32,516 nt of DNA from IMG/VR virus record IMGVR_UViG_3300042114_000046, positions 1 to 32,516 of that record, one strand, 5' to 3'. This DNA comes from a virus. Every line of letters starts with the position of its first letter. Position 1 is the stretch's first letter. Positions 1-23,873 of the stretch are shown here, piece after piece. The notes beneath the pieces were generated by a model, which was not told the origin of the DNA, made no database searches, and saw only the letters and a program-made list of their open reading frames with translations. The translations under genes and the position numbers were made by a program.

Positions 1-303
1 TGAGTTTCAATGGTGCGAACAATATATATAGATTGATATTGTTTATTTTGTTTAAATTGTTTAAATTGTTTAAATTGTTTAAATTGTTTAAATTGTTTAA
101 ATTGTTTAATTTGTTTAAATTGTTTAATTTGTTTAAATTGTTTAAATTGTTTAAATTGTTTAAATTGTTTAATTTGTTTATTAAATTCTTATGTTACTGG
201 TACAGAATACTTTATAATTTATTATATATCAACTATTTATACTTTTTTATCTTAAAAAAAACCGTTGTAAGTTACTGAGTTTCAATGGTGCGAACAATAT
301 ATA
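1..303. repeat. 303-bp direct terminal repeat, left copy
   Basis: These bases are identical to 32214-32516. The overlap shows that the sequence closes on itself, either as a circular molecule assembled with redundant ends or as a linear genome with direct terminal repeats. It holds one complete 275-bp unit (1-275) plus the first 28 bases of the next unit. Because the overlap lies inside an internally repetitive locus, the real number of 275-bp units may have collapsed in assembly. Confidence 0.9.
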
Positions 304-415
304 TAGATTGATATTGTTTATTTTGTTTAAATTGTTTAAATTGTTTAAATTGTTTAAATTGTTTAAATTGTTTAAATTGTTTAATTTGTTTAAATTGTTT
401 AAATTGTTTAATTTG
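1..415. repeat. 275-bp unit with 9-bp (TTTAAATTG) arrays, left side
   Basis: The first unit (1-275) has a head (1-50), fourteen 9-bp repeats (51-176; TTTAAATTG with TTTAATTTG variants) and a 99-bp tail (177-275). A second head starts at 276 and carries ten repeats (326-415), then stops exactly at the polymerase stop codon (416). Iteron-like arrays beside a polymerase gene suggest a replication origin or a binding site for a replication or partition protein, but this is inference. The region can be read as a Lys-Leu-Phe-repeat peptide starting from TTG. I regard that as a by-product of the 9-bp period. Confidence 0.85.
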
Positions 416-1663
416 TTATTTACTGTATGTTTTGTTTATTGCTTGTTTATTATTCATTCTTGTTTTTCTTTTTTCTATTAATTTATTTACTGATTTTATT
501 TCACTACACTCTTTAAACTTTAAATTAGGTATAATACCATATTTATTGTGGAAAATTGTTGTCAATGTTGATTTTACTGTTTTTACTTCATGTTCACTAA
601 CATAAACTGCATCGTGTGCGGAAAGGTAATCTCCTTCAAATAGGTTATTAAATTCACTGATAAATACATTCGATTCTAGTTCTTGAAGTTTACAAGATAA
701 TTCTTTAAAATCATCTTTTTTATATTTTTCTACAAATGAATAAATTGAAGGGAATATCTCTTTAAAAACTTTTCTGGTTTTACTTCTATATCTTGTTTCA
801 TTTCCTTTATCATTTTTTTCAGATGAAAAAAACATTTGTAATAATGTTAATTTAATGTCTAATTTAGTTACTTCATTATCTTTTAAAATTCTTCTGTATT
901 CTCCTAAAAAATAGTCGTATAATTCACCTTTAATACAAAGTTGTTTATATAAATCAGCATCTTTATTATCGAAGATAGTATTATCTTCATTATTAATTAA
1001 TATACATAAAAAGAATGGTTGTGAATTTGAACAATCAATTTCCCACAATCTATTATTGTTTATTAATACATAATATCTAAAATTAGACATCATTTCATTA
1101 AAAGGGTGATATACTCTACCTGTTTTACTGTTAGCTATGTTTTCCATTTTTACCTGTTTATTTATTATCTTATTAATATGTGAACTTATATTTCCAAATG
1201 ATTCTCCATAAAATTTCTGCAATTTTACACTATTTAATATTTCTACTATTCTTTGATCTACTGTTATTTTGTTTTCATATACATCTAAAATACGTTCTTT
1301 TATTTCTTTACTAACAACATCATTTCTTAAATCTTTACTTATATAAAAATCAGATATTTCTATTTCTATTAAGTCGGTTGTTGTAATATTAAATGTATCA
1401 ATTCTATATCCTAATGCACTTTTTTTGACAATATAACTTCCATTACATCTTATTATTTTATTTTCCAATAAAAAGTCAAGATATATTTCATAATTGCGTT
1501 TATATTGTTGTAAAAATTTAGAATACAAAGATACAAATCCAAATTCATTTATCTTAGGAAAATGGTTTATTAAGTGTAATATAAAATAAAGGTATTCTTT
1601 ATCTAATTTTGTATCAATTACTTCTATTAATTGATGTGCAGTTTTGTTTAATTGAATTTTCAT
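416..1663 (-). CDS. Divergent family-A-like DNA polymerase (TV-Pol-like)
   Basis: This 415-residue protein is the only candidate replication enzyme. Residues about 30-90 look like a winged-helix domain. The C-terminal half shows the spaced motifs of the superfamily-A polymerase fold: a Gly-Arg pair (182-183), a motif-A-like segment DCSNSQP (210-216), a Lys-containing helix (about 271-280, KLTLLQMFFS) where motif B is expected, and a motif-C-like SAHDAVYV (348-355) with the His-Asp pair. This combination, with a much-reduced core, resembles the TV-Pol family described from mobile elements and some DNA viruses, for which combined primase and polymerase activity has been proposed. No 3'-5' exonuclease domain is visible. 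The gene is transcribed away from the late block, behind a promoter-like motif and a structured leader, and its stop codon abuts the 9-bp repeat array. Assignment is from motifs only. Confidence 0.6.
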   Translation of the reverse strand: MKIQLNKTAHQLIEVIDTKLDKEYLYFILHLINHFPKINEFGFVSLYSKFLQQYKRNYEIYLDFLLENKIIRCNGSYIVKKSALGYRIDTFNITTTDLIEIEISDFYISKDLRNDVVSKEIKERILDVYENKITVDQRIVEILNSVKLQKFYGESFGNISSHINKIINKQVKMENIANSKTGRVYHPFNEMMSNFRYYVLINNNRLWEIDCSNSQPFFLCILINNEDNTIFDNKDADLYKQLCIKGELYDYFLGEYRRILKDNEVTKLDIKLTLLQMFFSSEKNDKGNETRYRSKTRKVFKEIFPSIYSFVEKYKKDDFKELSCKLQELESNVFISEFNNLFEGDYLSAHDAVYVSEHEVKTVKSTLTTIFHNKYGIIPNLKFKECSEIKSVNKLIEKRKTRMNNKQAINKTYSK

Positions 1664-1689
1664 AATTTGTCTTTATTTTTTATATATTT

Positions 1690-1760
1690 AAATGTCTTTT
1701 TAGTGTAACAGGTGGGGTGACTAGCTACTTTCACCCCATAAAGACATTTGGATAACCTGT
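1690..1760 (-). promoter_or_regulatory. Pseudoknot-like structured leader of the polymerase gene
   Basis: Three perfect inverted pairs occur. AAATGTCTTT (1690-1699) pairs with AAAGACATTT (1740-1749). GGGGTGA (1714-1720) pairs with TCACCCC (1731-1737). ACAGGT (1708-1713) pairs with ACCTGT (1755-1760). The first and third pairs cross, so together they define a pseudoknot enclosing a GC-rich hairpin, which is striking in such AT-rich DNA. In the minus-strand transcript this would form the 5' leader, ending about 27 bases before the polymerase ATG. A role in translational or copy-number control of the polymerase is inference. Confidence 0.5.
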
Positions 1761-1778
1761 ATATTATATATACTTTTT
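1761..1778 (-). promoter_or_regulatory. Phage promoter-like motif upstream of polymerase
   Basis: Read on the minus strand this is AAAAAGTATATATAATAT, the same sequence found on the plus strand at 3430, 8570 and 19662. It contains TATAAT. Transcription starting six to eight bases further on would place the 5' end close to the ACAGGT strand of the pseudoknot leader. This is the only copy found on the minus strand. Confidence 0.5.
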
Positions 1779-2021
1779 ACAGTATTTTTAATTTTGTACC
1801 GTATCCGACTTTCACATCTAAATACGGCTAAAAGAATGAACGACTTTTATTATATATTTATTTATTTGTAAAGTTTAGCGTTTTTAACAAAGTTTAACAT
1901 ATTATTCCCCTAATTTATATTCATTCTAAATAAGTGGTGAAACCTACATTGCATATAAAAAAGAAGATATTTTCTTATCGTTCATTGTAACCAGTTATAA
2001 TTAAAATAATTCCAAAAATAT

Positions 2022-2052
2022 TTTGTTTTATTCAAATTTTTTATTATATTTG
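2022..2052 (+). promoter_or_regulatory. Canonical Bacteroidota-type promoter
   Basis: TTTG (2022-2025) is followed after 19 bases by TATATTTG (2045-2052). This matches the Bacteroidota primary-sigma consensus (TTTG, 19-21 bases, TAnnTTTG) exactly. It points rightward toward the gene at 2315 and precedes the first control-module copy. It is the best single-site evidence for the host group. Confidence 0.55.
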
Positions 2053-2064
2053 CGTATATAATAT

Positions 2065-2131
2065 ACCATTTTTAATAAAAGTACCTTAAAGCAACATATA
2101 ATCATCTATAATAAAAAAACGATAATATTTT
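2065..2131 (+). repeat. Control module copy A (67 bp)
   Basis: These 67 bases are identical to 2222-2288, forming a direct repeat 157 bp apart. The core includes CCTTAAAGCAACATATAATC and a following run ending in ACGATAAT. A third, inverted copy lies at 30692-30806. Presence upstream of two separate operons and nowhere inside genes points to a promoter, operator or leader element. Confidence 0.8.
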
Positions 2132-2167
2132 TTAAATAATTGTTATACTTTGTTTCAAAAACACGAA

Positions 2168-2288
2168 TAAACACCGTTTTTAACGCAATACAGGCACTTT
2201 TATATATTTTGTTATATAATTACCATTTTTAATAAAAGTACCTTAAAGCAACATATAATCATCTATAATAAAAAAACGATAATATTTT
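2168..2288 (+). promoter_or_regulatory. Control module copy B (about 120 bp)
   Basis: This is the longer copy of the module. Its first half (AAACACCGTTTTTAAC onward) and second half both match the inverted copy C at 30692-30806, with only a handful of substitutions and one 2-base indel. Its second half (2222-2288) is identical to copy A. It ends 26 bases before the ATG of the gene at 2315, so it covers the expected promoter and leader of that operon. Confidence 0.65.
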
Positions 2289-2314
2289 AAAATATATAAA
2301 TAAAAAGAAACAGT

Positions 2315-2548
2315 ATGAATGAGACTATTTTACTAAGCCAAGAAAAAATGATATTACTATCATCATTCATTAATGATGAATCCAAATTATTGAAATATTT
2401 TAGAAATAGTAGAATTAATTTCTCTTACTTTTCAACAGTTAATGAATTGAGAAAAGAGATATATAAAAAAACAGATGAAATATATAAAGATAATACATCT
2501 AATATTAAGATGATAAAAAAAATAAACAAACAAAATGTTAAACTTTAA
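2315..2548 (+). CDS. Small hypothetical protein, first gene of the rightward early-type operon
   Basis: This is a 77-residue, Lys/Ile/Asn-rich, largely helical-looking protein with no recognised domain and no membrane segment. ATG at 2315 follows an A-rich leader (AAAAAGAAACAGT), typical of Bacteroidota initiation without Shine-Dalgarno pairing. It directly follows control module B. Its 3' end overlaps the next gene by 14 bases, which indicates translational coupling and supports it as a real gene. Function unknown. Confidence 0.6.
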   Translation: MNETILLSQEKMILLSSFINDESKLLKYFRNSRINFSYFSTVNELRKEIYKKTDEIYKDNTSNIKMIKKINKQNVKL

Positions 2549-4304: not shown

Positions 4305-5801
4305 TTGAAAGCAAAAGATAAAGATTATTATTCAGTTGAATCTGATGTATATTATCAATCTCTTAAAACTAAGTTTAACATCTTTGATAAGAAAACTAAG
4401 AAGAATGATTATATATTAAATGATTTTCAAGAATTTGTATCTACCTATTTTCAACATTATACTTTAGATACAAATAATAATGAGATAAAATTAGCTCCAT
4501 TTCATTTGGAATTAATTGAAGAATTAAAAGCTGATAAAGTAGAAATACTTGCAGAGATGTCAAGAGGTCATGCTAAGTCTAGTGTCTTTTCTTTATTTGC
4601 ACCTATATTCTTTATGTTGAGAGGTGATATACATCTTGCTGTTTTAATATCTGCTACAAAAGAATCATCAGTTAAATTATTGATAAATTTACAGGTAGAA
4701 CTTGAAACTAATCAGAAATTAATTAATGATTTTGGTCCATTTATTAAAGTAGGTGATTGGAAAAAAGGTTCTTTCACTATTGAAAAATATGATTGTAAAT
4801 TTGAATGTCTTGGAAAAGGACAGTCGGTTAGAGGTCTTAGATATAAGAATTACCGAATTGACTATTGTATAGTAGATGATATTGATACTGATCAAGACTG
4901 TAGAAATAAAGAAACGATTGAATATCAATATCAATGGTTGATGCAAAATGTATTTAATGCAATGGAAATTACTAAATATAAATTTTTATTCGTAGGTAAT
5001 AGATTTGCAACTAATATGATATTAGGCAAGTTCTCTGAAATACCTGATATAAAACATATAAAGATAAATGCTTTAGATGATAATGGTGAACCTTCTTGGA
5101 AAGGTAGATTTTCTAAAGAAGATTTAAAACGCATTGAACAAAAGATAGGTTCTATCAATTTTTTTAGAGAATATATGAATACTCCTATTAATATAGGTTC
5201 AATATTTAAAGATGAATGGTTTCAATTTAAGCAACCATTATCTTATGATAAGTATGAGTATATAGTAGTATATTTAGACCCTTCTTTCAAAAAAGAAGCA
5301 GATTATAAAGCCGTTTTAACTTTAGGATTTGTAAATAAAGAATATCATATATTAGATATTTATTTAAGAAGACAAACAATGAATAATGTAATTGAATATC
5401 TTTATAATTTAAATGATAAATTATTAAAAGCTCCTTATTCTATGTATTATGAAGCAAATTTTGCTCAGGATTTACACCAAAGAGAATTTAATGAAATAGC
5501 AGATAAAAAGGGATATAAATTACCTATTATACAAGATAAAGATAGGAAAGATAATAAACAAGCAAGAATAGAATCAATGTCTGTAGTATTTGAAAACAGA
5601 GATATATTTATATCAAATTTACTTGAATATTCGAATGATTATAAAGAATTTAAGAACCAAATGTTATCGTTTCCATCTAAAGGAGTAAATGACGATGGCT
5701 CAGATGCACTACAATCAGCATATGTAAAACTTAATTTATTCATTAGAAAGATGAGAAATGATATTATGTATGGTACAGACGATAGACTAATGCACTTTTA
5801 A
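4305..5801 (+). CDS. terL: Terminase large subunit (ATPase-nuclease)
   Basis: This is the DNA-packaging motor. The N-terminal ATPase has a Walker-A-like SRGHAKSS (86-93), a Walker B segment YCIVDDIDTD (187-196) and a coupling-motif-like VGNRF (230-234). The C-terminal RNase-H-like nuclease has VVYLDPSF with Asp325, YYEANF with Glu383, and DDGSDALQ with Asp467, the expected acidic triad. Length (498 residues) is normal. The start is TTG at 4305: an in-frame stop lies 15 bases upstream and the next Met is deep within the ATPase domain. A TTG start may keep motor protein levels low. It lies directly upstream of the gp36-like and portal genes, as in Mu-type head modules. Confidence 0.92.
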   Translation: MKAKDKDYYSVESDVYYQSLKTKFNIFDKKTKKNDYILNDFQEFVSTYFQHYTLDTNNNEIKLAPFHLELIEELKADKVEILAEMSRGHAKSSVFSLFAPIFFMLRGDIHLAVLISATKESSVKLLINLQVELETNQKLINDFGPFIKVGDWKKGSFTIEKYDCKFECLGKGQSVRGLRYKNYRIDYCIVDDIDTDQDCRNKETIEYQYQWLMQNVFNAMEITKYKFLFVGNRFATNMILGKFSEIPDIKHIKINALDDNGEPSWKGRFSKEDLKRIEQKIGSINFFREYMNTPINIGSIFKDEWFQFKQPLSYDKYEYIVVYLDPSFKKEADYKAVLTLGFVNKEYHILDIYLRRQTMNNVIEYLYNLNDKLLKAPYSMYYEANFAQDLHQREFNEIADKKGYKLPIIQDKDRKDNKQARIESMSVVFENRDIFISNLLEYSNDYKEFKNQMLSFPSKGVNDDGSDALQSAYVKLNLFIRKMRNDIMYGTDDRLMHF

Positions 5802-5817: not shown

Positions 5818-6240
5818 ATGAAATATATCACTAAAACAGAATTATTAACATTAGTAAAAGAAAATATACTTAATGATTTAACCCAAGAAAACAATAATAT
5901 CTTAGATGAATTAGAGTTACTTGCTATGTCAGAAGTAGATGCAATTATTGGAAGTAAATATAATATGACTGAGGTATTTAATAGAAAAGGTGAAAATAGA
6001 AATCCTTTTATTAAAAATTTAGTTATAAATGTTATGCTTTATTATTTACATATGCGTTTAACACCTAACCAAATTCCAGTTATAAGAGAAACATTATATA
6101 AAGAAGCAATAGGATATTTAATGCAAGTAGCTAAAGGAGTTATATCTCCGCCTATTTCACGAAATGAATTACCATTTAATCCAAGAAGTTCTGAGTCTTT
6201 ATATGGATGTGGTACTAAAGTAAATGATAGTATATATTAA
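5818..6240 (+). CDS. Mu gp36-like (DUF1320-type) head-tail connector protein
   Basis: This 140-residue protein has the pattern of the Mu gp36/DUF1320 family: an N-terminal YITKTELLTLV segment, a central AMSEVDAIIGSKYNM helix (about 52-66) and a following helical segment LVINVMLYYLHMRLTP. The family is encoded beside the portal in Mu-like phages and is thought to form part of the head-tail joining region. Placement between large terminase and the DUF935 portal agrees. The C-terminal tail (PFNPRSSESLYGCG) looks unstructured. Confidence 0.65.
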   Translation: MKYITKTELLTLVKENILNDLTQENNNILDELELLAMSEVDAIIGSKYNMTEVFNRKGENRNPFIKNLVINVMLYYLHMRLTPNQIPVIRETLYKEAIGYLMQVAKGVISPPISRNELPFNPRSSESLYGCGTKVNDSIY

Positions 6241-6257
6241 AATAAAATAAAGTAAAT

Positions 6258-7406
6258 ATGAACATTATTGATAAATTATTTGGGAAACAGAACCCAAAAA
6301 GAGTCACATCTGAAATTATAGAGAGAAATAATTATCGAGTAAGGGAAACAATATCATCTTGGCAAAATGCAGTAACTCAGGCTGAGTCTAAAGATTCTTA
6401 TATGAAACCCGATAGAAAAGCTTTGATAAGAATATATAATGACATTATATTGGATAATCATTTGGCTTCTGTAATTGAACTTAGAAAAGAAAAGGTTCTT
6501 GAGTATTCATTTTATCTACATAGAAATGATGTTATAGATGAAGAATCAACAAAGAAAATAAATTCTGAGTGGTTCTATAAAGTATTAGGATATATATTAG
6601 ATATTATTTTTTACGGTCATTCATTAGTTCAAGTTGAATCAGTTTATTTAAATAATATTACTCAAATATCTTTAGTAGATAGGGAAAATATTATACCTGA
6701 ATATGGTGAATTTATGAAAGATGTATATAATAATTTAGATGTTATATCGTATATTGAACCTAAAATGTATTCTTGGTTATTTGAGTTTTATTCAGATAGA
6801 AAAGACTTAGGCTTATTAAAATCTATTGTACCATTAGTATTATGGAAACGGTCAGCAATGTCAGCTTGGGCAGAATATACAGAAGTGTTTGGCATGCCTA
6901 TTAGAATTGCTACAACTACATCTGCAGATACACAAGATAGAAAAAGATTAGCAGATTTTGTAAAGAATATCGGTAAATCAGCTTGGGCGGTGTTGGACCG
7001 AGAAGAAAAAATAGATTTTATAGAAAATAAGAAAACCGATTCATATAATGTATATGATAGATTGATAGAACTTGTAAATAAAGAAATATCAAAAGCTGTA
7101 TTAGGAGTTACAATGTTAAATGAAGATGGTTCAAGTAGAAGTCAAAGCGAAGTACATTCTGAACAGTCAGAAATTAAAACCAGAAGTGATTTAAGAAATA
7201 TAGAATTTATTATCAAAGATAAACTTATACCAAAATTAGTAGGTTTAGGTGTATTGCCAGAAGGTTTAGAATTTAAATTTGATATAAGTGAAGTGTCAAG
7301 TCCAAGTGAACAAATACTTATTGATAAGGAATTGGGTCTTATGTATCCTCTATCTAAAGAATATTTAAAAGAAAGATATTCAGTTGAATTTGAAAATATA
7401 TCTTAA
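6258..7406 (+). CDS. Portal protein, Mu gp29-like (DUF935 family)
   Basis: This is the dodecameric ring at the head vertex through which DNA passes. Family features include DNHLASVIELRKEKVL (about 70-85), the WKRSAMSAWAEYTEVFGMP segment (about 194-212) and GVTMLNEDGSSRSQSEVHSE (about 281-300), all typical of DUF935 portals. The last residues (YPLSKEYLKERYSV) also match the family, after which the protein stops early. A further 28 codons (7405-7488) are open in the +1 frame and would extend it with an acidic tail, so a C-terminal frameshift or indel is possible. Confidence 0.85.
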   Translation: MNIIDKLFGKQNPKRVTSEIIERNNYRVRETISSWQNAVTQAESKDSYMKPDRKALIRIYNDIILDNHLASVIELRKEKVLEYSFYLHRNDVIDEESTKKINSEWFYKVLGYILDIIFYGHSLVQVESVYLNNITQISLVDRENIIPEYGEFMKDVYNNLDVISYIEPKMYSWLFEFYSDRKDLGLLKSIVPLVLWKRSAMSAWAEYTEVFGMPIRIATTTSADTQDRKRLADFVKNIGKSAWAVLDREEKIDFIENKKTDSYNVYDRLIELVNKEISKAVLGVTMLNEDGSSRSQSEVHSEQSEIKTRSDLRNIEFIIKDKLIPKLVGLGVLPEGLEFKFDISEVSSPSEQILIDKELGLMYPLSKEYLKERYSVEFENIS

Positions 7407-8612: not shown

Positions 8613-9860
8613 ATGGCTTATCGTTACACACTTAGTTCAGATGACAAAAATGCTTATGGATATACCGTTTTAACAACAGGAATAGATTTATCAGAATTTA
8701 ATGAAAATCCTGTAATGTTATATAATCACGATATAAACAAAGTATTAGGTAGATGGACAGATATAAAGAAAGAAGAAGATGAAGATGGAAAATATGAATT
8801 GACTGCAACAGCTCAATTTGATGATGATGATTTTTCCAAAGAGATAGAAAAAAAGATAGCAAGGGATTATATAATTGGTGTGTCCGTAGGAGCGATTTTA
8901 TTAGATGCTTATGTAAATGCTGATGAAGAATTAATTGTTACCAAAGCATTATTAAAAGAATGTTCTATAACAGCTTTACCTGCTAATAAAAAAGCAAAAG
9001 TAAAGAAAGAAGCATCTTTAAATTTATCAGAAATGTCTGTAGAACTATCTTATAATGGAGAAAAAGATATTAATAAAATAAAAGAATATTTTATGAACAA
9101 AGATATAGAATTGACCACTTTCAATAACCATCCTGATGTATTAAAAAATATCATAGAGGAAACTAAAGTTGAAGAAGTGGTAATTGAAGAAAAACAAGAA
9201 GAAATTGCAAATCCTATTGAAGAAAAGATAGAACAAATAATTGAAGAATCTATCATAGTTGAAGAAATAGTTGAAGAAGTTAAACCAAAGTCTAAAAGAT
9301 CCAAAAAGGTAGACGAGTTACAATTATCAGAAACACTATTAAGAAATCTTAATTTAACTATAAATGAAGATGAATATATTGACTCTAAGATTATATTAAC
9401 AATTCAAGATTTGCAAGTAGCTTCTAATAAAATTATAAATGATTTTCCTGAGTATATAGAATTATCTATAAAACTTGTTGAAAAAGATAATCAATTAGAA
9501 AACTTAAAAAAAGAATTAGAAGAGATTAAATTATCTTTAAAAACTAATGAAGTATCTAATATTGTTGAATTAGCTATAACAGAAGGTAAAATTAAGTCTG
9601 AACATAAGGATTTAATTATCGAATTAGCACAAAATAATATTGATACAGTTAAAAAACTAATTGATTCTATTAATGTGGTTAAACAACCCGATATTAAATT
9701 AACAGATTCAATTAAAAAAGATATCGCTACATCTGTAAATAAAGATTGGAAATGGTATCAAAAAAATGATCCTAATGGATTAAAACAATTAAAATTAAAC
9801 AATTCTGCCATGTTCAATAAATTATATTTTAACGAATATAAAATTGAATATAAAGGATAA
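8613..9860 (+). CDS. Prohead protease fused to scaffold domain
   Basis: This 415-residue protein likely processes and scaffolds the procapsid. The N-terminal ~130 residues look like a herpesvirus/HK97-type assembly protease: NPVMLYNHD with His39, IIGVSVGA with Ser91, and LKECSITALPANK around Glu116. A highly acidic segment (about 180-230) leads to a Lys/Arg patch. A coiled-coil-like helix follows (about 280-320, with LEKKELEEIKLSL-type heptads near ENLKKELEEIK), and the C-terminal part resembles a scaffold with a basic end. Protease-scaffold fusions directly upstream of the major capsid gene are a standard arrangement, and the capsid gene follows here after 26 bases. Confidence 0.8.
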   Translation: MAYRYTLSSDDKNAYGYTVLTTGIDLSEFNENPVMLYNHDINKVLGRWTDIKKEEDEDGKYELTATAQFDDDDFSKEIEKKIARDYIIGVSVGAILLDAYVNADEELIVTKALLKECSITALPANKKAKVKKEASLNLSEMSVELSYNGEKDINKIKEYFMNKDIELTTFNNHPDVLKNIIEETKVEEVVIEEKQEEIANPIEEKIEQIIEESIIVEEIVEEVKPKSKRSKKVDELQLSETLLRNLNLTINEDEYIDSKIILTIQDLQVASNKIINDFPEYIELSIKLVEKDNQLENLKKELEEIKLSLKTNEVSNIVELAITEGKIKSEHKDLIIELAQNNIDTVKKLIDSINVVKQPDIKLTDSIKKDIATSVNKDWKWYQKNDPNGLKQLKLNNSAMFNKLYFNEYKIEYKG

Positions 9861-9886
9861 ACAATAAAAAATAAAAAATAAATAAT

Positions 9887-10801
9887 ATGGCTTTAAATAA
9901 AGAAATTTGGTTACAAACAATTGAAGAACAATTGTTTCCAAACAATGAATTTTATAGAAATGCAATGAATGATAGTGCTTTCATTGAAAATTTAACTGTA
10001 CATTTACCACAAGCAGGTGCAATGCCAGCAGTAGTAAAAAATAGAAGTTCTTTTCCTGCTTCTGCAAGTCAGAGAACTGATACCGAATTAAAATACTTTA
10101 TGGATGAGTATACAACTGACCCTATGTATGTAACAGATGTTGAATCTGCTGAATTTTCTTATGATAAGAGAATGAGTATAATGAGAGCAATGTTAGACAC
10201 ATTGAATACTACTGTTGCTGATTGGATTGCTTATAATTGGGCAGCTACTTTAGGAACTAATATTATAGAAACTACTGGTGTATCAAGAAATGCTTATCAT
10301 CCAAATCAAACTTCAACTCGTTTGAAATTAACTTTTGCTGATATTTTAAGAGCTTCTTCTATATTGAATGCTCAGAATGTTCCAATGGAAAATAGAAAAA
10401 TGTTAGTTGATGCTTATCTTTATCAAGATCTTTTAGCAATGTCTGAATTTAAAGATGTTTACACTTTACAATCAGGTATTTTAACTAATGGTTCAATTGG
10501 TAGAGTAGGTGGATTTGACGTATTTATGAGAAGTAGAGGTATTGCTTATGAACCTGGACCAACAGCAGTTGCTTTAGATCCAACTGAAGTAATCACAACT
10601 AATACCAATTTAGGTATTTTATGTTGGCATCCTAACTTTGTTAGATTCGCATTAGGTTCAAGAGTTAACTCTGGTATTAAAATATTCAGTCAAGGTGAAA
10701 ATCCTTTATATTATGCTGACGTATTTTCAGCACTGGTAAGAACAGGATCCAGCAAAGCAAGAACATCTGAAACTGGTATCGTTTCTATTATAGAAGGATA
10801 A
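9887..10801 (+). CDS. Major capsid protein
   Basis: This 304-residue protein forms the head shell. Evidence is its position right after the protease-scaffold, its size, its GC-richer and less biased codon use (highly expressed gene), and its fold-like layout. The layout runs from an N-terminal arm (EQLFPNNEFYRNAMND) through a beta region (HLPQAGAMPAVVKN) and a long helix region (MRAMLDTLNTTVADWIAYNW) to C-terminal strands (GGFDVFMRSRG; LGILCWHPNFVRFALGS). It resembles capsid proteins of Bacteroidota Mu-like phages. An HK97 fold is expected but not directly provable from sequence here. A hairpin (10827-10848) follows, as often seen after capsid genes. Confidence 0.8.
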   Translation: MALNKEIWLQTIEEQLFPNNEFYRNAMNDSAFIENLTVHLPQAGAMPAVVKNRSSFPASASQRTDTELKYFMDEYTTDPMYVTDVESAEFSYDKRMSIMRAMLDTLNTTVADWIAYNWAATLGTNIIETTGVSRNAYHPNQTSTRLKLTFADILRASSILNAQNVPMENRKMLVDAYLYQDLLAMSEFKDVYTLQSGILTNGSIGRVGGFDVFMRSRGIAYEPGPTAVALDPTEVITTNTNLGILCWHPNFVRFALGSRVNSGIKIFSQGENPLYYADVFSALVRTGSSKARTSETGIVSIIEG

Positions 10802-10884: not shown

Positions 10885-12114
10885 ATGGCATTAAATGATG
10901 TTATTTTCATTAAAGGGCAAGGTGGCTTAGGTAGAACTGCTGGTGATACTGATTATGTTTCTGGTCTTTTAATATATGATGTAAAATTTTTAGACAATGC
11001 TTCTTTTACTACTAATGGTATCACTACTTTTACTTCAACAAATCGTATCATATCTTTTAATAGAATAGCCGATGTTGAAGCTACAGGTTTAACTGAAACT
11101 AATACATTAGTGAAAGAATATTGGTATCAAATAAAAGAATATTTTAGAGCAAATTCTACTGGAAAATTATTTGTAGGTCTTTATAATGATACAACTAAAA
11201 ATCTCGTTCCATCAAGTTTAACATTTGATGAAATTTACACGATGCAAGTATTTGCAGAAGGTGAAATTAGACAAATTGGTGTTTATAACACAAAAAATAC
11301 ATATTCTACTGGTGATGTTGAATTAATTCAAAGTGTTGCTGCTGAATGTGAAACTGATCACATGCCTTTATCTTGTGTATATGGTGCAAACTTTAATACT
11401 TCTGCTTTTGCAGATTTAACAACTTTAGATAGTTTAAGAACTTTATCTACTCCAAGTCCAAAAGTATCTGTAGTTTTACTACAAGATGGTGCTAATGTTG
11501 GTAAATCATTATTTACATCTGAAGGAAATTCTATACCTGCTATTGGAGCTTTACTTGGTGCAATTTCTGCATCTTTAGTAAATGAATCTATAGCTTGGGT
11601 ACAGAAATTTAATGTTGCTTTTGGTGGTGAATTAGAAACTATTGCTTTTGTTAATGGTGATTTATACACTTCATTAACTAAAACAGAATTAAATGATATT
11701 AATAGTTTAGGATATATATTTGGAGTAAAACATATTGGTATTGCAGGTACATATTTTAATGATAATTATACTGCTGGTACAATTCTATCAGACTATGCTT
11801 ATATTAGTGAAGTTAGAACAATTGATAAAGCTATAAGAAAAGTAAGAACTGCTTTGTTACCTCAATTAAATAGACCTATTAAAGTAAAATCTAATGGTAC
11901 TATTGAAGGAACTACAATAGCATTTTTAAGAAATGTTGCTGTTAAACCAGTTGATTTAATGATTGGTGCTGGAGAATTAAGTGCAGGTGATGTATTTATT
12001 GATCCAAATCAAAATATATTAATTAATTCTAAATTAGAAGTTACTATTCAGTTAATACCTTATGGTACAGCAAGAACAATTGAAGTTACAATAGGTTTCA
12101 CAACTAACTTATAA
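10885..12114 (+). CDS. Contractile tail sheath protein (DUF2586 type)
   Basis: This protein forms the outer contractile sheath. The N-terminus MALNDVIFIKGQGGLGRTAGDTDYVSG follows the DUF2586 sheath family pattern of Bacteroidota Mu-like phages. The C-terminal part (VRTALLPQLNRPIKVKSNGTI, then a final beta strand region) fits the conserved sheath core that interlocks subunits. At 409 residues it is compact. Its presence defines the virion as contractile-tailed. It lies downstream of the capsid gene and upstream of two tail tube genes, the usual order. Confidence 0.8.
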   Translation: MALNDVIFIKGQGGLGRTAGDTDYVSGLLIYDVKFLDNASFTTNGITTFTSTNRIISFNRIADVEATGLTETNTLVKEYWYQIKEYFRANSTGKLFVGLYNDTTKNLVPSSLTFDEIYTMQVFAEGEIRQIGVYNTKNTYSTGDVELIQSVAAECETDHMPLSCVYGANFNTSAFADLTTLDSLRTLSTPSPKVSVVLLQDGANVGKSLFTSEGNSIPAIGALLGAISASLVNESIAWVQKFNVAFGGELETIAFVNGDLYTSLTKTELNDINSLGYIFGVKHIGIAGTYFNDNYTAGTILSDYAYISEVRTIDKAIRKVRTALLPQLNRPIKVKSNGTIEGTTIAFLRNVAVKPVDLMIGAGELSAGDVFIDPNQNILINSKLEVTIQLIPYGTARTIEVTIGFTTNL

Positions 12115-12138: not shown

Positions 12139-12528
12139 ATGGCAGTACTAACTAAATATACAATGAGACAGGGGGAATCGAAAGCAATGGAGATTCCTGT
12201 TGTTGATGAAAATGGTGTTGCAATAGATATATCAACACCAAATGTAACAAATATTATAGTTACATTATCAAATAATACAAGTGTAATAGCAAAATATTCT
12301 TTGAATTCAATGGGTTTAGGATGGGGTACTTTACTTGCAGATTCTAATATAGTAACTATATTAGCAACAAGAGAACAAACTTCTCTATGGGAAACTGGTT
12401 ATGTAAAAGCAACTGTAACGGTAGAATTTACAGATTTAACATTAACTTATTTAGTTGATGATTTTGAAAATACTACATTTTTACAGATTTATCCATCTAT
12501 AAATGCACAATATACTTTAATACATTAA
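12139..12528 (+). CDS. Beta-rich tail protein (BppU-N-like pattern)
   Basis: This is a 129-residue protein between sheath and tube genes. The pattern (MRQGESKAMEIPVVDENG, strands with alternating hydrophobics, and LATREQTSLWETGYVKATVTV) resembles small phage beta-sandwich domains such as the N-terminal domain of BppU-type appendage proteins. A structural or assembly role in the tail is likely from context. The assignment is weak. Confidence 0.45.
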   Translation: MAVLTKYTMRQGESKAMEIPVVDENGVAIDISTPNVTNIIVTLSNNTSVIAKYSLNSMGLGWGTLLADSNIVTILATREQTSLWETGYVKATVTVEFTDLTLTYLVDDFENTTFLQIYPSINAQYTLIH

Positions 12529-12548
12529 AAATAAAAATATAAAATACT

Positions 12549-13025
12549 ATGATATTAGATAATAATACAGAAATTAATGGAATTGCTTATGATTGGGCTT
12601 CTATCACTTTAAAATGGGTTGCTGGTACTACTGGTGTTGGTGATCAAATTACAGGAGTTGATGGTGCTACACTAATTGGTGTTTCAAAAATTGCTTATGG
12701 TGAAACTAGAGATTTTCAACATAATTATGGATATGGTTCTTATCCTATTTCAAAAGGACAAGGAAATATTACAGTTGAAGCAAGTATGACTATTAATATG
12801 CAAGAATATCTTAAACTTTTGGCTTTTGCTACAAATGGTAAAATTCAGAATTTAGGTTATTTTGACGTTCAAGTTTCTTATGCTCCTGGAACAGGTGATA
12901 CTCCAACACAAACTCACCTTATTCAATCTTGTTCATTAAGTTCCAGCTTCTTTGAAGTATCTCAGAATGATATGAATATGGAAGTTGAAGTAGATTTACA
13001 TCCTTTGAATATAAAATATAACTAA
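12549..13025 (+). CDS. Tail tube protein, first copy
   Basis: This 158-residue beta-rich protein probably forms the inner tail tube. It starts with an NGIAYDWASITLKW strand pair, followed by KIAYGETRDFQHNYGYGSYPISKGQG and a C-terminal SQNDMNMEVEVDLHPLNIKY segment. That arrangement resembles tube proteins of contractile systems. The next gene is a clear paralogue (same NGVAYDWGTI opening and the same SQGDMDIKYQFNL ending). Position directly after the sheath region and before the chaperone and tape measure fits. Confidence 0.7.
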   Translation: MILDNNTEINGIAYDWASITLKWVAGTTGVGDQITGVDGATLIGVSKIAYGETRDFQHNYGYGSYPISKGQGNITVEASMTINMQEYLKLLAFATNGKIQNLGYFDVQVSYAPGTGDTPTQTHLIQSCSLSSSFFEVSQNDMNMEVEVDLHPLNIKYN

Positions 13026-13027
13026 TA

Positions 13028-13567
13028 ATGACATTAGGAAATAATAATATATTATTAAATGGAGTTGCTTATGACTGGGGCACAATTATTCTATTAATAG
13101 AAGGTGTTCCCGTTGTAGGCATTTCAAGTATATCATTTAATGAAACAATGAATAGTCAAAACTTATTTGGAACAGGATTATATCCTATCCATGCAGGTTT
13201 TGGTAAAATAAATTCATCAGCTTCAATAACATTAAATGCAGATGAAATATTTGCATTACAGAATGTTGCTGTAAATGGTATATTACAAAATATTCCACCA
13301 TTCGATATTATTATAACTTATATGATGGAAGAATTGAATTTTTTCGATTCAAATGCTAAATTACCAAGAACTATTATATTAAAGAATTGTAGATTTACAA
13401 ATGTTGGGATGGATATTAGTCAAGGTGATATGGATATAAAATATCAATTTAATTTATCTATCAGTCATATAATATGGAAACCAATAACTCAAGATAATTT
13501 GATTAAATATGGAGGATTAGTTTTAGATACAATATCTGAATTGGTTGGAAAGAAAAGAAATAAATAA
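13028..13567 (+). CDS. Tail tube protein, second copy (paralogue)
   Basis: This 179-residue paralogue of the preceding tube gene starts two bases after it. Shared landmarks in order are LNGVAYDWGTI, VGISSISFNETMNSQNLFGTGLYPIHAGFGK, a helix-like DEIFALQNVAVNG and DISQGDMDIKYQFNLS. It carries about 25 extra C-terminal residues with a basic end (LVGKKRNK). It may form a special ring, such as a tube initiator or terminator, or co-assemble with the first copy. Confidence 0.65.
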   Translation: MTLGNNNILLNGVAYDWGTIILLIEGVPVVGISSISFNETMNSQNLFGTGLYPIHAGFGKINSSASITLNADEIFALQNVAVNGILQNIPPFDIIITYMMEELNFFDSNAKLPRTIILKNCRFTNVGMDISQGDMDIKYQFNLSISHIIWKPITQDNLIKYGGLVLDTISELVGKKRNK

Positions 13568-13578
13568 CAAATTAAAAT

Positions 13579-14145
13579 ATGAAAGAAGAAAGAAAAGAAA
13601 GAAAAGAAGTAATTCAATATGCTTCTTTAATAGAAAAATTTAAAAAAGAAAACATAGAATTTTATTCAATAGAAATAGAACCAGATTATGTATGTTTTCT
13701 TAAAAAAGCCGATAGAACTACCATTAAACAAGTTTTATCATTAGTACAAAAAGATAATATATCTGGCATGTATCTTTTATTCCAAAATACTTGGATAGGT
13801 GGAGATAAAGAAATAATGGAAGATTCTGAATTATTCTTATCTGCAATTTCTACAATTGGTGAAATATTTAAAAAATATGATGTAACATTTGAAAAAATAG
13901 ATAATAACTATAAATTTGTTATTGATAATAAAGAATGTATAATTAGAAAACCCAAAATAGCAGAGTTATCCAAATTATTTTCAACATTAGAAAAAGATCC
14001 TTTAGGAGCAAATGAATTATTATTAAATACTTGTTGGTTATCTGGAGATGAAGATATAAAAAAGAACGATGATTACTTTTTATCATTAAGTCCTATGTTA
14101 GAAAATATTTTAAATGTAAGAAATGCTACTTTAAAAAAAAACTAG
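13579..14145 (+). CDS. Tail assembly chaperone, short (G-like) product
   Basis: This 188-residue acidic protein lies between tube and tape measure, the fixed place of tail assembly chaperones. It contains two similar halves (DNISGMYLLFQNTWIGGDKEIMEDSELFLSA and PLGANELLLNTCWLSGDEDIKKNDDYFLSL), showing internal duplication of a small domain. The frame ends at TAG (14143-14145) just after a slippery A-run at 14133-14141. A -1 shift there would continue for 83 more codons to 14393, giving the longer G-T-type form. Confidence 0.75.
   Translation: MKEERKERKEVIQYASLIEKFKKENIEFYSIEIEPDYVCFLKKADRTTIKQVLSLVQKDNISGMYLLFQNTWIGGDKEIMEDSELFLSAISTIGEIFKKYDVTFEKIDNNYKFVIDNKECIIRKPKIAELSKLFSTLEKDPLGANELLLNTCWLSGDEDIKKNDDYFLSLSPMLENILNVRNATLKKN
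14133..14142 (+). promoter_or_regulatory. Programmed -1 frameshift site of tail chaperone
   Basis: Nine A residues followed by C sit two codons before the TAG stop. In the zero frame the final codons are TTA AAA AAA AAC, so both A-AAA-AAA and A-AAA-AAC slippery heptamers are present. Slipping back one base places the ribosome in an 83-codon open frame. Position at the 3' end of the tail chaperone gene is where most tailed phages have this switch. Confidence 0.75.
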
Positions 14146-14393
14146 ACGAATACACCATTCACAAAAACCCAAATAGAGACATCCTTCGAAAGACATTAGC
14201 TGCTCTCAGACGATACTTCAAAATAACCACAGAAGAAATTAATAATATGGATGACGATACTTGGGCTTTGCTGTACACAGAACTTCAGTGGATTCTTGAA
14301 CAAGAAAACCCACAACAGGATAAAATTTCCAAAGTAAATTATTCTAATCCTATTCAAAAAAGGAAAGATTACATTAATAAAATCTTGAAATAA
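14142..14393 (+). CDS. Tail assembly chaperone, frameshift (T-like) extension
   Basis: This -1 frame runs open from the slippery site to TAA at 14391-14393, adding 83 residues (LDEYTIHKNPNR... to ...YINKILK) to the chaperone. It has no ATG near its beginning and depends on the frameshift. It fills most of what would otherwise be a 368-base gap before the tape measure gene. Its content (NNMDDDTWALLYTELQWI) is protein-like. Codons are noticeably richer in C (ACC, CAC, GAC, ATC, TTC) than in surrounding genes, which is unexplained. Confidence 0.75.
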   Translation, partial: LDEYTIHKNPNRDILRKTLAALRRYFKITTEEINNMDDDTWALLYTELQWILEQENPQQDKISKVNYSNPIQKRKDYINKILK

Positions 14394-14498
14394 GATTTTA
14401 TGATTACATTAATAAAATCTTGAAATAAGATTTTATGATTACATTAATAAAATCTTGAAATAAGATTTTATGATTACATTAATAAAATCTTGAAATAA
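14367..14498 (+). repeat. 35-bp tandem repeat, each unit a perfect hairpin
   Basis: Three complete 35-bp units start at 14367, 14402 and 14437. A partial fourth starts at 14472. Each full unit contains ATAAAATCTT-GAAAT-AAGATTTTAT, a perfect 10-bp stem with a five-base loop. The first copy contains the end and stop codon of the chaperone extension, so the 3' end of that gene seems to have been amplified. Three successive hairpins could slow exonucleases, attenuate transcription into the tape measure gene, or simply be replication-slippage products. Confidence 0.85.
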
Positions 14499-14513
14499 AA
14501 TATTAAAACGATA

Positions 14514-16289
14514 ATGGCAAGTACAATTACAGTAACGGCAGTATTAAATAATTTAATATCACCTCAACTAACACGAATATCTACTCAATTAAATACTGTA
14601 TCTGATAGATTTAAATTTGTTGGAACTAATGCTACTAATTCTATATCTAAAACAACTAAAGGTATGACAGAATTAGGTAAGAAGATAGAAACAATTGCAG
14701 CAGGAGCTTTATTAGCACTTGGAGCTGGTTTTACTTTAATTACTAAAAGCATAATTGAGTCTACTGCTGAGATGGAAAAATATCAAGCAGTTTTAACTAA
14801 TACTTTTGGTTCAGAAAATCAAGCTAAAGCATCTATGCAAATGATTACTGATTTTGCAATTAAAACTCCATTTCAAATTGATAAATTAACTGAATCGTAT
14901 GTTAAATTAGTTAATCAAGGATTTACTCCTACGGAAAAAGAAATGACTAGCTTGGGTGATTTAGCATCTTCAACAGGCAAAGAATTTGATCAATTAGTAG
15001 AAGCAATGTTAGATGCTCAAACTGGTGAATTTGAAAGATTAAAAACTTTTGGCATAACAGCAAATACAGAAGGAGATAAAGTAAAATTTACATTTAAAAA
15101 TGTAACTACAGAAGTAGATAAAACTTCAGAAGCAATGAGAGAATATATATTATCTCTTGGAAATTTGAAAGGTGTATCTGGTTCAATGACATCAATTGTC
15201 CAAAGTTTAACAGGAACAATATCTAACCTAAAAGATACTGTACAACAATTTGGAGTATCAATAGGAAATGTATTCAGTGATAGTTTACAAGCTAAAATAA
15301 TATCTGTTGATACATTATTAGAAAAGATAAAACCTACTGTAATATCTATATTAACTCAATTTAAAAACTTAAATTTTGATTTTGATATAAGTGGTGGAAA
15401 AATACTATCTACATTATTAGAATCTATAAACAAGAATTTTTATATTTTTAAAGATGTATTTGATAGTTTTAAACCAGCTGTAACAGATTTTTTTTCATCT
15501 ATATCTAAATTATTTGGTTCAGATGGAAGTGGATTAACTACTTTATTTAAAGTTTTAGGAATAACTTTAAAAACTGCTTTAACACCAATGTATCTATTAT
15601 TAAAAGCATTAACATATATAAGCGATGCAGTTGTATGGATTAAAACTAAATTTGATGCATTATCTACAAGATTACAAAATGTAGTTAAGATATTATCGTT
15701 TGCACTTATGCCTATTATTACATTAGTTGTTGCAGGATTTAAACTAATAACTAATGCAATAAATAATTCTATTGCTTCAGCTAAAAAATTAGTTGATACT
15801 ACAAATGAATTAGTACAGCCTACAAGAAATGCAGAAGATAGATATGCCAGAATAGAAGAAAAGTTGATTGGTATCAATTTAGAATTAGAAGCTATGTTAG
15901 CTAATAATTTATTGATAGATATGCAGGCTTTATCTACTGATCCTTTTGCGTGGATGGATGAAGCATCGGATAAAATGAATAAATTGCAACGGTTAAATGT
16001 TTTATTAAAACAAAAAGCTAATTTAAGTACAGTTACTGCACCAACAGCATCAGATATTACATCTACAGATTTGGGTGCAACTGCGGGTTTAGATGAAACG
16101 AGCACAACATTAACTACTGATAGAAGTGTTACAAATATAACATTAGATATTGCTAAAGTAGTTGAATCGGGTGGAATAGTATTACAAACTACAAATATGA
16201 CAGAAAACTCAGCACAAATATCAAAGATAGTTGAAAATGCGTTAGTAAAAGCATTAGTAGATGCAACAAATATAAAATTAAGTAAATAA
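14514..16289 (+). CDS. Tape measure protein
   Basis: This 591-residue protein sets tail length and is carried inside the tube. Its N-terminal half carries a recognisable tape-measure domain: an alanine/glycine-rich hydrophobic helix (IAAGALLALGAGFTLITKS, about 57-75), then TAEMEKYQAVLTNTFGSENQAKA and FAIKTPFQIDKLTESYVKLVNQG. The C-terminal half alternates amphipathic helices and hydrophobic segments (about 335-420). By the usual rule of roughly 1.5 angstrom per residue a short tail of about 90 nm is expected. The start is ATG at 14514, 15 bases after the hairpin repeats. A long antisense open frame over its 3' half looks like a shadow. Confidence 0.85.
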   Translation: MASTITVTAVLNNLISPQLTRISTQLNTVSDRFKFVGTNATNSISKTTKGMTELGKKIETIAAGALLALGAGFTLITKSIIESTAEMEKYQAVLTNTFGSENQAKASMQMITDFAIKTPFQIDKLTESYVKLVNQGFTPTEKEMTSLGDLASSTGKEFDQLVEAMLDAQTGEFERLKTFGITANTEGDKVKFTFKNVTTEVDKTSEAMREYILSLGNLKGVSGSMTSIVQSLTGTISNLKDTVQQFGVSIGNVFSDSLQAKIISVDTLLEKIKPTVISILTQFKNLNFDFDISGGKILSTLLESINKNFYIFKDVFDSFKPAVTDFFSSISKLFGSDGSGLTTLFKVLGITLKTALTPMYLLLKALTYISDAVVWIKTKFDALSTRLQNVVKILSFALMPIITLVVAGFKLITNAINNSIASAKKLVDTTNELVQPTRNAEDRYARIEEKLIGINLELEAMLANNLLIDMQALSTDPFAWMDEASDKMNKLQRLNVLLKQKANLSTVTAPTASDITSTDLGATAGLDETSTTLTTDRSVTNITLDIAKVVESGGIVLQTTNMTENSAQISKIVENALVKALVDATNIKLSK

Positions 16290-16290
16290 T

Positions 16291-16914
16291 ATGTCAAAAA
16301 TAGATCAAATAAATAGTTGGAATAAAGAATTTGCAACTAGATTAGCAAGACAAGATTATGTGCTTGGTAAATATCAAGATAATGCTTTACATCCAGAAGC
16401 GTATTTAGATATATCCGCTAAGTCAACAATGTTAAATACACCAATCGGAGATAGATTTATAAGTTTTGTTATTCCAGATGTTACTATATCAAAAAACACT
16501 TTAGATGTAAGTGGTGTGGATGTTACAGGACAAATTACAGGATTTATAATGGAAGATCCTATTATAACAATAACAAGACCAAGAGAAATAGTTCAAACTG
16601 TTGTTAATGGTTTAGACGGTAAAATAATTGAAATTGTATCTAATGGAAATTATGAAATAAATATAGTAGGCACATTTGCTGGAGTTAGATTTTGGGAATA
16701 TGATAATGATAATTTAGTTTATCTTGAAAAGATATGCAAATATAAAGGAGAAATAGATATTTTATCACCTTATTTAAATAATGTATTTGAAGTATTTAAA
16801 ATTATTGTAACAGACCATAAAATAGCACAATCATCTGAATTTACAAATATTACTGCAATAGAACTTAATTGTGTAGCAGTATTAAATGAATCAATATTTA
16901 AAACAAATATATAA
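16291..16914 (+). CDS. Tail/baseplate protein of Bacteroidota phages (DUF6046-like)
   Basis: This 207-residue protein lies between tape measure and hub. The middle (DVTGQITGFIMEDPIITITRPREIVQTVVNGLDGKIIEIVSNG) shows the pattern of tail-tip proteins that link tube and hub. I recall this type in Bacteroidota phages under DUF6046, but the match is by memory and tentative. ATG overlaps closely with the upstream stop (one base gap), so coupling with the tape measure gene is likely. Confidence 0.5.
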   Translation: MSKIDQINSWNKEFATRLARQDYVLGKYQDNALHPEAYLDISAKSTMLNTPIGDRFISFVIPDVTISKNTLDVSGVDVTGQITGFIMEDPIITITRPREIVQTVVNGLDGKIIEIVSNGNYEINIVGTFAGVRFWEYDNDNLVYLEKICKYKGEIDILSPYLNNVFEVFKIIVTDHKIAQSSEFTNITAIELNCVAVLNESIFKTNI

Positions 16915-16917
16915 GTT

Positions 16918-18033
16918 ATGATATATGATTTAAATTGTGAAATAAAAGTTTATAATAAACTTATAGATAAAACATATAATTCTATTCCTGTTATTATTGA
17001 TAAAGTAATAGGATTTGAAATAGAATATAATGTTGATTCTTTAACTAATACTTGTAATTTAAAGTTACCGAGAAAAAATGCTATTATATCAAGAAAAGGT
17101 GAAACATCTGGTAAAAACGTATCTTTATATTATTATACTGATTTAACTCAGCAGATAGGAATTGGTGCTAAGGTAGAAATAAAATATGGATATAATATAT
17201 CGGATTTTGGTAGTCAATATATTAAATTTAATGGATATATATCTGATATAACAATAGAAGATACTTATGTTAATATTTATATTGAAGACTCAATGTATTT
17301 ATTAAAGAAAGCTAAAAGAATTCAAAATACATATATATCAAAAACATTAAAAGAAGTAATTGAAGATATAACTAAAGATATTGATATAGAATTAGGTGAA
17401 ATTTCAAGTTTTGTATTTCAAAATTTAAGAATACCAAATTTATTATCACCAAGTGAAATACTCAGTATGTTAAAAGATAATTATAGTTTTTATTTTTATT
17501 TTTATGACAATAAATTATATGGAGGATTAAGATACCCATTATCAATTGAAGGTAAAACATATCAATTTGGGTATCCATATGATAATACTAAAAATGTAAT
17601 TGCTAGTAAAAACTTTAAAAATACAAATTCAGAAATAGATGAAAGTATTGTAATAATAAATAGTATTCAAACAGATAACACAACATTAAAAGTATATGCA
17701 GATGTAGACAATTCAAATGGTGTTGAATATATAGATGACTCAACACTTCCAGAAAAAGATACTAAAGTAGAATTAAAAATACCTAATTTATTATTAGCAG
17801 AATGTATTCAACAAGCTGCTAATAGATTTGGACTATTCAGAACTAATTATATAGAAGGAAGTTTCATTACATTTGGTGAACCTTATTTAAAAGTATGCGA
17901 TATAATTGAATTAACATTAAACCAAGAAAACCAACAAACAATAAGTACATTTTATATTGACTCGATTATATTAAAATATGGTGATGGTGGAGGAATAACA
18001 CAAGATATAACATTAGGAAATCAAATAAACTAA
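16918..18033 (+). CDS. Baseplate hub protein (Mu gp44 / T4 gp27-like)
   Basis: This 371-residue protein would form the trimeric hub between tube and spike. Features are an N-terminal beta domain (VDSLTNTCNLKLPRK), a second beta domain with KFNGYISDITIEDTYVNIYIEDSMYLLKKAK, and the helical ILSMLKDNYSFYFYFYDNKLYGGLRY segment typical of late-control-D/gp27-like hubs. The end (LILKYGDGGGITQDITLGN-like IILKYGDGGG) fits as well. The spike gene follows at once (one base gap). Confidence 0.7.
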   Translation: MIYDLNCEIKVYNKLIDKTYNSIPVIIDKVIGFEIEYNVDSLTNTCNLKLPRKNAIISRKGETSGKNVSLYYYTDLTQQIGIGAKVEIKYGYNISDFGSQYIKFNGYISDITIEDTYVNIYIEDSMYLLKKAKRIQNTYISKTLKEVIEDITKDIDIELGEISSFVFQNLRIPNLLSPSEILSMLKDNYSFYFYFYDNKLYGGLRYPLSIEGKTYQFGYPYDNTKNVIASKNFKNTNSEIDESIVIINSIQTDNTTLKVYADVDNSNGVEYIDDSTLPEKDTKVELKIPNLLLAECIQQAANRFGLFRTNYIEGSFITFGEPYLKVCDIIELTLNQENQQTISTFYIDSIILKYGDGGGITQDITLGNQIN

Positions 18034-18034
18034 A

Positions 18035-19651: not shown

Positions 19652-19661
19652 CAAAGTTTTT

Positions 19662-19680
19662 AAAAAGTATATATAATATA
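19662..19680 (+). promoter_or_regulatory. Phage promoter-like motif abutting the second spike gene
   Basis: AAAAAGTATATATAATATA runs directly into the ATG at 19680. Another copy of the motif would place a transcription start at or just inside this ATG, giving a leaderless or near-leaderless mRNA, or a transcript for genes further downstream. Alternatively the motif is not a promoter but an initiation enhancer. The 28-base gap here is otherwise empty. Confidence 0.4.
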
Positions 19681-20375
19681 TGAATAGTATAAAAGATTTA
19701 ATAAATAAACTGACTGAAACCCAAGATGAGATATATTCTAAGATAGGTATATATCAGGGAAAAAATGAAGATAGTCCAAACCTTTGTACGGTTAAATTAT
19801 TGGATGGTTCAATGCTTTATAATGTAAGAATATCAGCAGATCCATATGGAGGTTCAAAAACAGATCCTTCTATAAATTCGTCTGTAATAGTTACATTTCT
19901 AAGTAAAGAAGATGCATTTATATCGTTAATATCTAACGCAGATAATACAAGATTGGAGAGTACAAATTCTTTTGGTGATATTACATCATTAGCGATTATA
20001 AATGAGAACAATCAAACTACAGTTGGATTTAATAATGTAGAAAATTTTAATGCAAATACTGTAAATGGAGGTACATTAAGTATCTATAAAGAAGAAACAA
20101 ATGATTCCTTTTTAGTTAAAGGTGTAAGTGAAATAAGAATGGGTGTTAATAATGGTTCAGAAATTATTATAAATGATGAAGGAATTGATATATTAACAAC
20201 AAGTCACATATTAATTGGAAATGATATATTTACATTAAAAGATGCTTTAATTGAAATAGTTAATACACTTTTAACTGTTCCATTAATTCCTTTAGTACCT
20301 ACAGTAGTATTAGATCCTGTTACAATAACAACTCTAATAGAATTAAAAGTAAAAATAAATAATTTATTGAAATAA
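19680..20375 (+). CDS. Baseplate spike protein (Mu gp45-like)
   Basis: This 231-residue protein has an OB-fold-like N-terminus (YNVRISADPYGGSKTDPSINSSVIVTFLSKEDAFISLIS), a beta-rich middle with short repeats, and a C-terminal ITTSHILIGNDIFTLKDALIEIVNTL helix followed by VLDPVTITTLIELKVKINNLL, a pattern familiar from Bacteroidota phage spike proteins. It shares its fold with the longer protein encoded upstream. It would trimerise at the tail tip and pierce the envelope. Its stop overlaps the next gene's ATG by one base. Confidence 0.65.
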   Translation: MNSIKDLINKLTETQDEIYSKIGIYQGKNEDSPNLCTVKLLDGSMLYNVRISADPYGGSKTDPSINSSVIVTFLSKEDAFISLISNADNTRLESTNSFGDITSLAIINENNQTTVGFNNVENFNANTVNGGTLSIYKEETNDSFLVKGVSEIRMGVNNGSEIIINDEGIDILTTSHILIGNDIFTLKDALIEIVNTLLTVPLIPLVPTVVLDPVTITTLIELKVKINNLLK

Positions 20376-22222: not shown

Positions 22223-22237
22223 AAAAATAAAATAAAA

Positions 22238-23020: not shown

Positions 23021-23037
23021 TAAAAATAATACAATAT

Positions 23038-23872: not shown

Positions 23873-23873
23873 G

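Follow-up and report, generated by a model that had tools for sequence, protein, structure and literature searches.

A small tailed phage combining a Mu-related virion cassette with a lone family-A polymerase, very probably of TV-Pol type

TV-Pols were described as proteins of 400-600 amino acids with a conserved hairpin arginine, an RRM-like palm carrying two aspartates and an RxxxK motif, and without a fused nuclease (PMC2579912). Their genes are frequently associated with D5 helicase, resolvase, integrase or transposase genes; standalone forms exist, so that this context is not strictly defining for a TV-Pol (PMC2579912). In 2008 they were predicted to be prim-pols, mainly because TV-Pols and AEP-type modules displace one another beside D5 helicases; Iyer et al. 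argued for functional equivalence from such a replacement of non-homologous genes at a single locus (PMC2579912). CcPol, the one relative with published tests, is restricted to primer extension as long as the OB-fold protein MP, its partner, is lacking (PMC7581432, PMC10061031). The divPolA2 proteins of barbaviruses have been discussed as possible RNA or repair polymerases (PMC11348598). Among phages with Mu-like virions, all Winoviridae possess Mu-like structural proteins and only some encode MuA (PMC8776804). A Mu-like virion together with non-Mu replication genes, namely VirE_N and a D5-type helicase, is already known from isolated Flavobacterium Winoviridae (PMC8776804).

The sequence analysed here (the window) is a single IMG/VR virus record of 32,516 bases, which comprises approximately 32.2 kb of unique sequence and a direct terminal repeat of 303 bp at its ends. 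The exact closure is uncertain, because the ends lie inside a tandem repeat region consisting of ATTGTTTAA 9-mer arrays. In the sibling contig G002, the sequence is unbroken from the tail genes to the terminase, by way of the early region, and spans the corresponding junction. Due to the terminal repeat and this continuity, the gene list can be regarded as essentially complete, and the record is effectively a complete tailed phage genome of about 32.2 kb. The host is most likely a Bacteroidota bacterium. Two units are discernible, a leftward one beginning with the polymerase gene and a rightward one extending from position 2315 through packaging, head and contractile tail genes:

1..417: AT-rich repeats immediately downstream of the polymerase gene, including the terminal repeat
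416..1663, minus strand: family-A polymerase, very probably of TV-Pol type, 415 residues (alignment, AlphaFold2 model, profile comparison)
1664..2314: non-coding region between the leftward and the rightward (late) unit, holding an exact 68-bp direct repeat
2315..2548, plus strand: conserved protein of 77 residues, 72% identity in G002; one boundary marker of the presumably swapped region
4305..5801, plus strand: terminase large subunit, weak Terminase_6C match, closest to G002/G003
5818..7406, plus strand: Gp36-like protein (DUF1320, 4.5e-9) and Mu-type portal (DUF935, 3.5e-67)
8613..10801, plus strand: prohead protease (S78) and major capsid protein
10885..12114, plus strand: tail sheath (DUF2586, 1.8e-38; phrog_907, 2.6e-32) of a contractile tail
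12139..29546, plus strand: tail, tape measure, baseplate and fibre genes
29625..30113, minus strand: protein of 162 residues, last gene of the leftward unit, homologue in G002, shared boundary
30139..30333, minus strand: conserved protein of 64 residues, 84% identical in G002; the other boundary marker of the presumably swapped region
30333..30677, minus strand: RusA-like/PDDEXK nuclease (phrog_244, 2.6e-19; PF24608, 5.6e-7)
31173..31343: iteron-like 45-bp tandem repeat, about four copies

The open reading frame 416-1663 (minus strand) starts with ATG, is intact and encodes 415 residues. The first-pass annotation had noted motif-A- and motif-C-like segments in this protein, and both are present: EIDCSNSQP (D210) and SAHDAV (D351), preceded by TGR (R183). 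The protein can be divided into a winged-helix-like N-terminal domain (residues ~1-100), a thumb region, the hairpin R183, motif A with D210, the fingers K267xxxK271 and motif C with H350-D351. It contains neither a fused nuclease nor any other Pfam domain. As a single sequence it gave no useful match in Pfam, PHROGs or PDB sequences and, used alone as a query for related loci, no relative; for Pfam DNA_pol_A (PF00476), no match was found in the window at E<=1 (positive control: 7/7 bacterial genomes). By tblastn against phages, however, homologues were detected in six megaphages (record lengths 595-735 kb; best match 3e-10). By means of an alignment of the megaphage homologues, 128 confirmed viral stretches, of which 80 were kept, and 20 stretches in bacterial genomes were collected. 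Sequence-family searches with the resulting 64-row alignment yielded nothing useful, and two candidate ORFs of Ma-LMM01, tried as a published TV-Pol yardstick, gave no match.

In the alignment of 64 sequences, R183, D210, N213-P216, G246, Y249, K271, F300, P305, E330 and D351 are invariant. Since the family was retrieved partly with NSQP- or GR-containing patterns, the invariance of these stretches is in part an ascertainment effect; K271, E330 and D351 lie outside the patterns and are free of this bias. Fingers position 267 is occupied by Arg or Lys in 63/64 sequences. The Lys of the window polymerase can thus be read as a conservative variant of the RxxxK motif.

The AlphaFold2 model of the polymerase (pLDDT 88.8, pTM 0.82) has as top PDB fold matches exclusively family-A DNA polymerases, with apicoplast Pol as the best (7.8e-6), further Aquifex PolI, Bst, Taq and T7; none lies outside the fold. 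The corresponding TM-scores are modest (~0.3-0.45, normalised to the query length), which is partly due to the larger size of the matched chains. A further fold match is a 435-residue barbavirus protein annotated as DNA polymerase (6.8e-6). When the family was compared with a profile built from seven bacterial PolI sequences, T7 gp5 and a megaphage PolA, the two aligned collinearly over the TGR hairpin Arg and motifs A, B and C (P=5.3e-5, probability 67%). Motif B of PolI fits the family pattern K-xxx-[YF]-xxx-[FY]-G, from which the window polymerase deviates at two places, L275 and S280. In the register of this comparison, the invariant Q215 is aligned with the steric-gate glutamate of PolI. 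The earlier proposal of D210 and D351 as active site residues is borne out by their conservation in 64/64 sequences and by the PolI fold and profile match. That the protein is a family-A polymerase is virtually certain. Its assignment to the TV-Pol type, which follows from the fit of size, core and absence of a nuclease to the published description (PMC2579912), is very probable.

Residues 1-112, when modelled separately (pLDDT 85.8), resemble mostly winged-helix DNA binders. The best PDB match has an E-value of 0.043, which is not significant, and none was found below E=0.04; the model is suggestive of a winged helix in residues ~1-100.

With the TV-Pol family, the window polymerase shares the size, the family-A palm with two Asp, the hairpin Arg, the basic-xxx-K fingers motif, the lack of a nuclease, and kin in Bacteroidota, Planctomycetota, Verrucomicrobiota and large phages. 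It differs in the Lys replacing the Arg of RxxxK and in being carried by a small tailed phage, and no D5 helicase, resolvase, integrase or transposase gene lies beside it. The lack of an associated helicase is at odds with the contexts published for TV-Pols. CcPol is likewise a stand-alone, mobile-element-borne family-A catalytic domain with a proposed role in replication and an essential Asp pair (D169, D324); in contrast to the window polymerase, it has a different N-terminal domain, requires the OB-fold protein MP and is encoded together with a helicase, and neither MP nor helicase was found in the window. The divPolA2 proteins also lack an exonuclease and have, in front of a family-A palm, a globular N-terminal domain of unrelated type, but they accompany a PolB replicase in phages of 80-85 kb (PMC11348598), whereas the window contains no other polymerase.

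In a tree of 69 sequences, the window polymerase groups with sequences from Bacteroidota, Ignavibacteriota, Planctomycetota and Verrucomicrobiota (23 rows, 19 cellular and 4 viral; support 100/99), and the megaphage sequences fall in a separate viral clade of 46 rows. The exact place of the window polymerase is unsure due to its long branch. Its closest kin are found in mobile elements of Bacteroidota and neighbouring phyla. A family member is found in 10/198 Bacteroidota genomes, including the one that seeded the search, and several members in bacterial genomes adjoin integrase or AlpA-type genes. A Hymenobacter plasmid with a TV-Pol relative was considered as a precedent for a replicon relying on a TV-Pol only and was rejected, as it encodes its own replication initiation protein. 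A canonical PolA gene comes immediately after the TV-Pol gene in one lineage of large phages (L046:2437-4883, L089, L094, L104), which suggests a division of labour between the two. Multiple copies occur in Rufibacter latericius (G027), L188 and others; the twelve TV-Pol matches in one genome, several of them partial, have the appearance of a multi-copy mobile element family.

The virion genes point to a Mu-related ancestry, as had been stated in the first-pass annotation. The DUF935 portal and DUF1320 were confirmed by Pfam; the proposed gpG-like protein was detected only below threshold (PF05069, E=0.036). Identity of the capsid protein amounts to 77% with the siblings G002, G003 and G004 and to 29-36% with full-length matches from Flavobacterium, Porphyromonas and Elizabethkingia phages. 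Porphyromonas phage010a and Elizabethkingia TCUEAP3 both encode MuA and MuB, a prophage-type virion relative contains a strong transposase match (2.7e-106), and Flavobacterium phage lotta8-1 (Winoviridae), in which no transposase is annotated, encodes VirE_N together with a D5-type helicase. The virion module is accordingly related, by protein homology, to those of MuA/MuB-transposing Bacteroidota phages and of Winoviridae. The window was nevertheless assigned to neither group. Phage010a and TCUEAP3 share with it the Mu-type head genes but possess MuA and MuB, which have no match in the window, and a classification as Mu-like transposable phage was therefore rejected. Lotta8-1 resembles it in capsid (36%), sheath (39%), portal (29%) and lack of Mu transposition, but differs in its VirE_N/D5-type replication genes and Clp-type protease, and its terminase was not matched. 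From the Winoviridae core set (Clp protease, neck, MCP, sheath, protein D, portal), MCP, sheath and portal have homologues in the window, and a baseplate hub was recognised by profile. An assignment to Winoviridae was rejected on the tested features: the protease is of the S78 type instead of Clp, and TerL was not matched. In 23 capsid- or terminase-related contigs, no convincing polymerase copy was found; G014 contains a weak 54-residue match with stop codons.

In accordance with the first-pass annotation, no transposase, integrase, helicase or primase was recognised when every sizeable ORF of the window was scanned against Pfam. The MuA, MuB, VirE_N and D5-helicase proteins of the virion relatives gave no tblastn match in the window better than E=0.5. 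No Walker-A motif was detected in window ORFs of >=60 residues, with a pattern that misses the degenerate P-loop of the terminase. Pfam gave no match for the small leftward ORFs 30810-31019 and 31336-31599. The further statement that there is no other replication enzyme holds for a transposase or replisome but not for the nuclease at 30333-30677, which probably serves in branch resolution before packaging. Taken as a whole, the first-pass interpretation is partly supported, namely as regards the polymerase fold and the joining of Mu-related virion genes to a family-A/TV-Pol-type polymerase.

The sibling G002 shows what may occupy the same place. Homologues of the window gene at 2315 flank its early region on one side, and homologues of those at 30139 and 29625 on the other; its homologue of the 162-residue protein displays a likeness to sigma-70 region 2 (PF04542, 1e-4) that is below the cut-off. 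Between these flanks, a 489-residue protein (L047:13527-14996) is found in place of the TV-Pol, and the RusA-like gene is absent. The protein matches phrog_9765 DNA primase (2.5e-5) and, by eye, contains an AEP-like LDYDDG motif; based on these features, it is with moderate confidence a candidate AEP-like primase. No relatives were detected in phages, plasmids or 198 Bacteroidota genomes, and in viral contigs only the protein itself was retrieved. No P-loop and no recognisable helicase were found in G002. The best reading is a shared virion cassette around which the replication module was replaced, and the different primase candidate of the sibling at this position makes the combination in the window more interesting.

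Two repeat arrays are candidates for an origin. Within the region 1..417, the ATTGTTTAA 9-mers occur 16 times at 38-180 and 12 times at 313-417, within a tandem unit of ~276 bp; this array may be an origin or an initiator-binding array. The 45-bp array at 31173..31343 is an alternative candidate. The exact 68-bp direct repeat (2064-2131 and 2221-2288) is located upstream of the rightward unit, and by eye a similar sequence in opposite orientation is found at ~30690-30770, upstream of the RusA-like gene. These elements look like shared promoters or regulator sites.

We consider it likely that the polymerase serves the replication of the phage itself. It is also likely, if with slightly less assurance, that the entire combination is as it appears, namely a Mu-related virion cassette in which a single TV-Pol-type polymerase replaces the usual replication module, down to its use in replication. 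The polymerase would be expressed first from the leftward unit, and its N-terminal winged helix would bind the origin repeats or orient the template. At the melted origin, the core would lay down a short DNA primer or extend an existing one; helicase, SSB and replicative polymerase of the host would finish replication, and the RusA-like nuclease would resolve branches before packaging. Unaided priming should not be assumed, because CcPol only extends primers unless it is paired with MP, and the chance that the window polymerase makes primers itself appears to us a little below even. More tentative still is the idea of an initiator-primase fusion, in which winged helix and TV-Pol form the sole replication protein of a complete tailed phage; this protein would recognise the phage's own repeats, prime with no helicase from the phage, and be replaceable at its locus by an AEP-type primase.

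Three other explanations have to be weighed against a role of the polymerase in phage replication. The polymerase might be cargo from a mobile element that acts in repair or in competition between elements, while the host replicates the phage DNA. TV-Pols are indeed mobile-element genes, with members adjoining integrase or AlpA-type genes, a relative resides on a plasmid with its own initiator, and the virion-related contigs contain no convincing copy. However, neither a recombinase nor an insertion boundary adjoins the gene, which is the first of the leftward unit and has a primase-like counterpart between the same flanking genes in the sibling; moreover, the window contains no other replication enzyme. 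We therefore regard cargo as unlikely. Alternatively, the protein could be a single-subunit RNA polymerase or a DNA polymerase for repair, functions suggested for divPolA2 (PMC11348598); the fold match to the barbavirus protein brings this into play. The best solved matches are DNA polymerases, though, and a second replication enzyme that could be assisted is absent. At the steric-gate position, the family has an invariant glutamine, whereas T7 RNA polymerase has a glycine, and this function is improbable. Finally, the true replication genes could have been lost at the repetitive ends, where closure by the assembler within the tandem repeat could mask sequence. This is highly improbable given the terminal repeat, the continuity of G002, which also lacks a recognisable helicase, and a size in agreement with that of complete relatives (33-35 kb).

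Two phages with most of the virion cassette in common thus contain a TV-Pol and an AEP-like primase candidate, respectively, between the same flanks, and neither has a recognisable helicase. If the polymerase does act in replication, a further mode of replication would stand beside MuA/MuB transposition, VirE_N/D5 helicase and AEP-like primase for one Bacteroidota virion lineage. The phage would offer a small, complete system for testing priming by TV-Pols and the minimal needs of a tailed phage for starting replication. Should the fusion and exchange reading be true, the two phages would represent a natural experiment indicating that TV-Pols are functional equivalents of prim-pols.

Two minor elements were observed in the rightward unit. 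Positions 3333-3403 (plus strand) match the Rfam tRNA model with 32.2 bits, just above the cut-off, and were not called by ARAGORN; stems of the T-arm and the anticodon arm are visible and the acceptor stem is weak, so that this may possibly be a degenerate or odd tRNA. The interval separating gene 13579-14145 from the tape measure gene contains, at 14367-14505, four tandem copies (98%) of a 35-bp unit with an inverted repeat.
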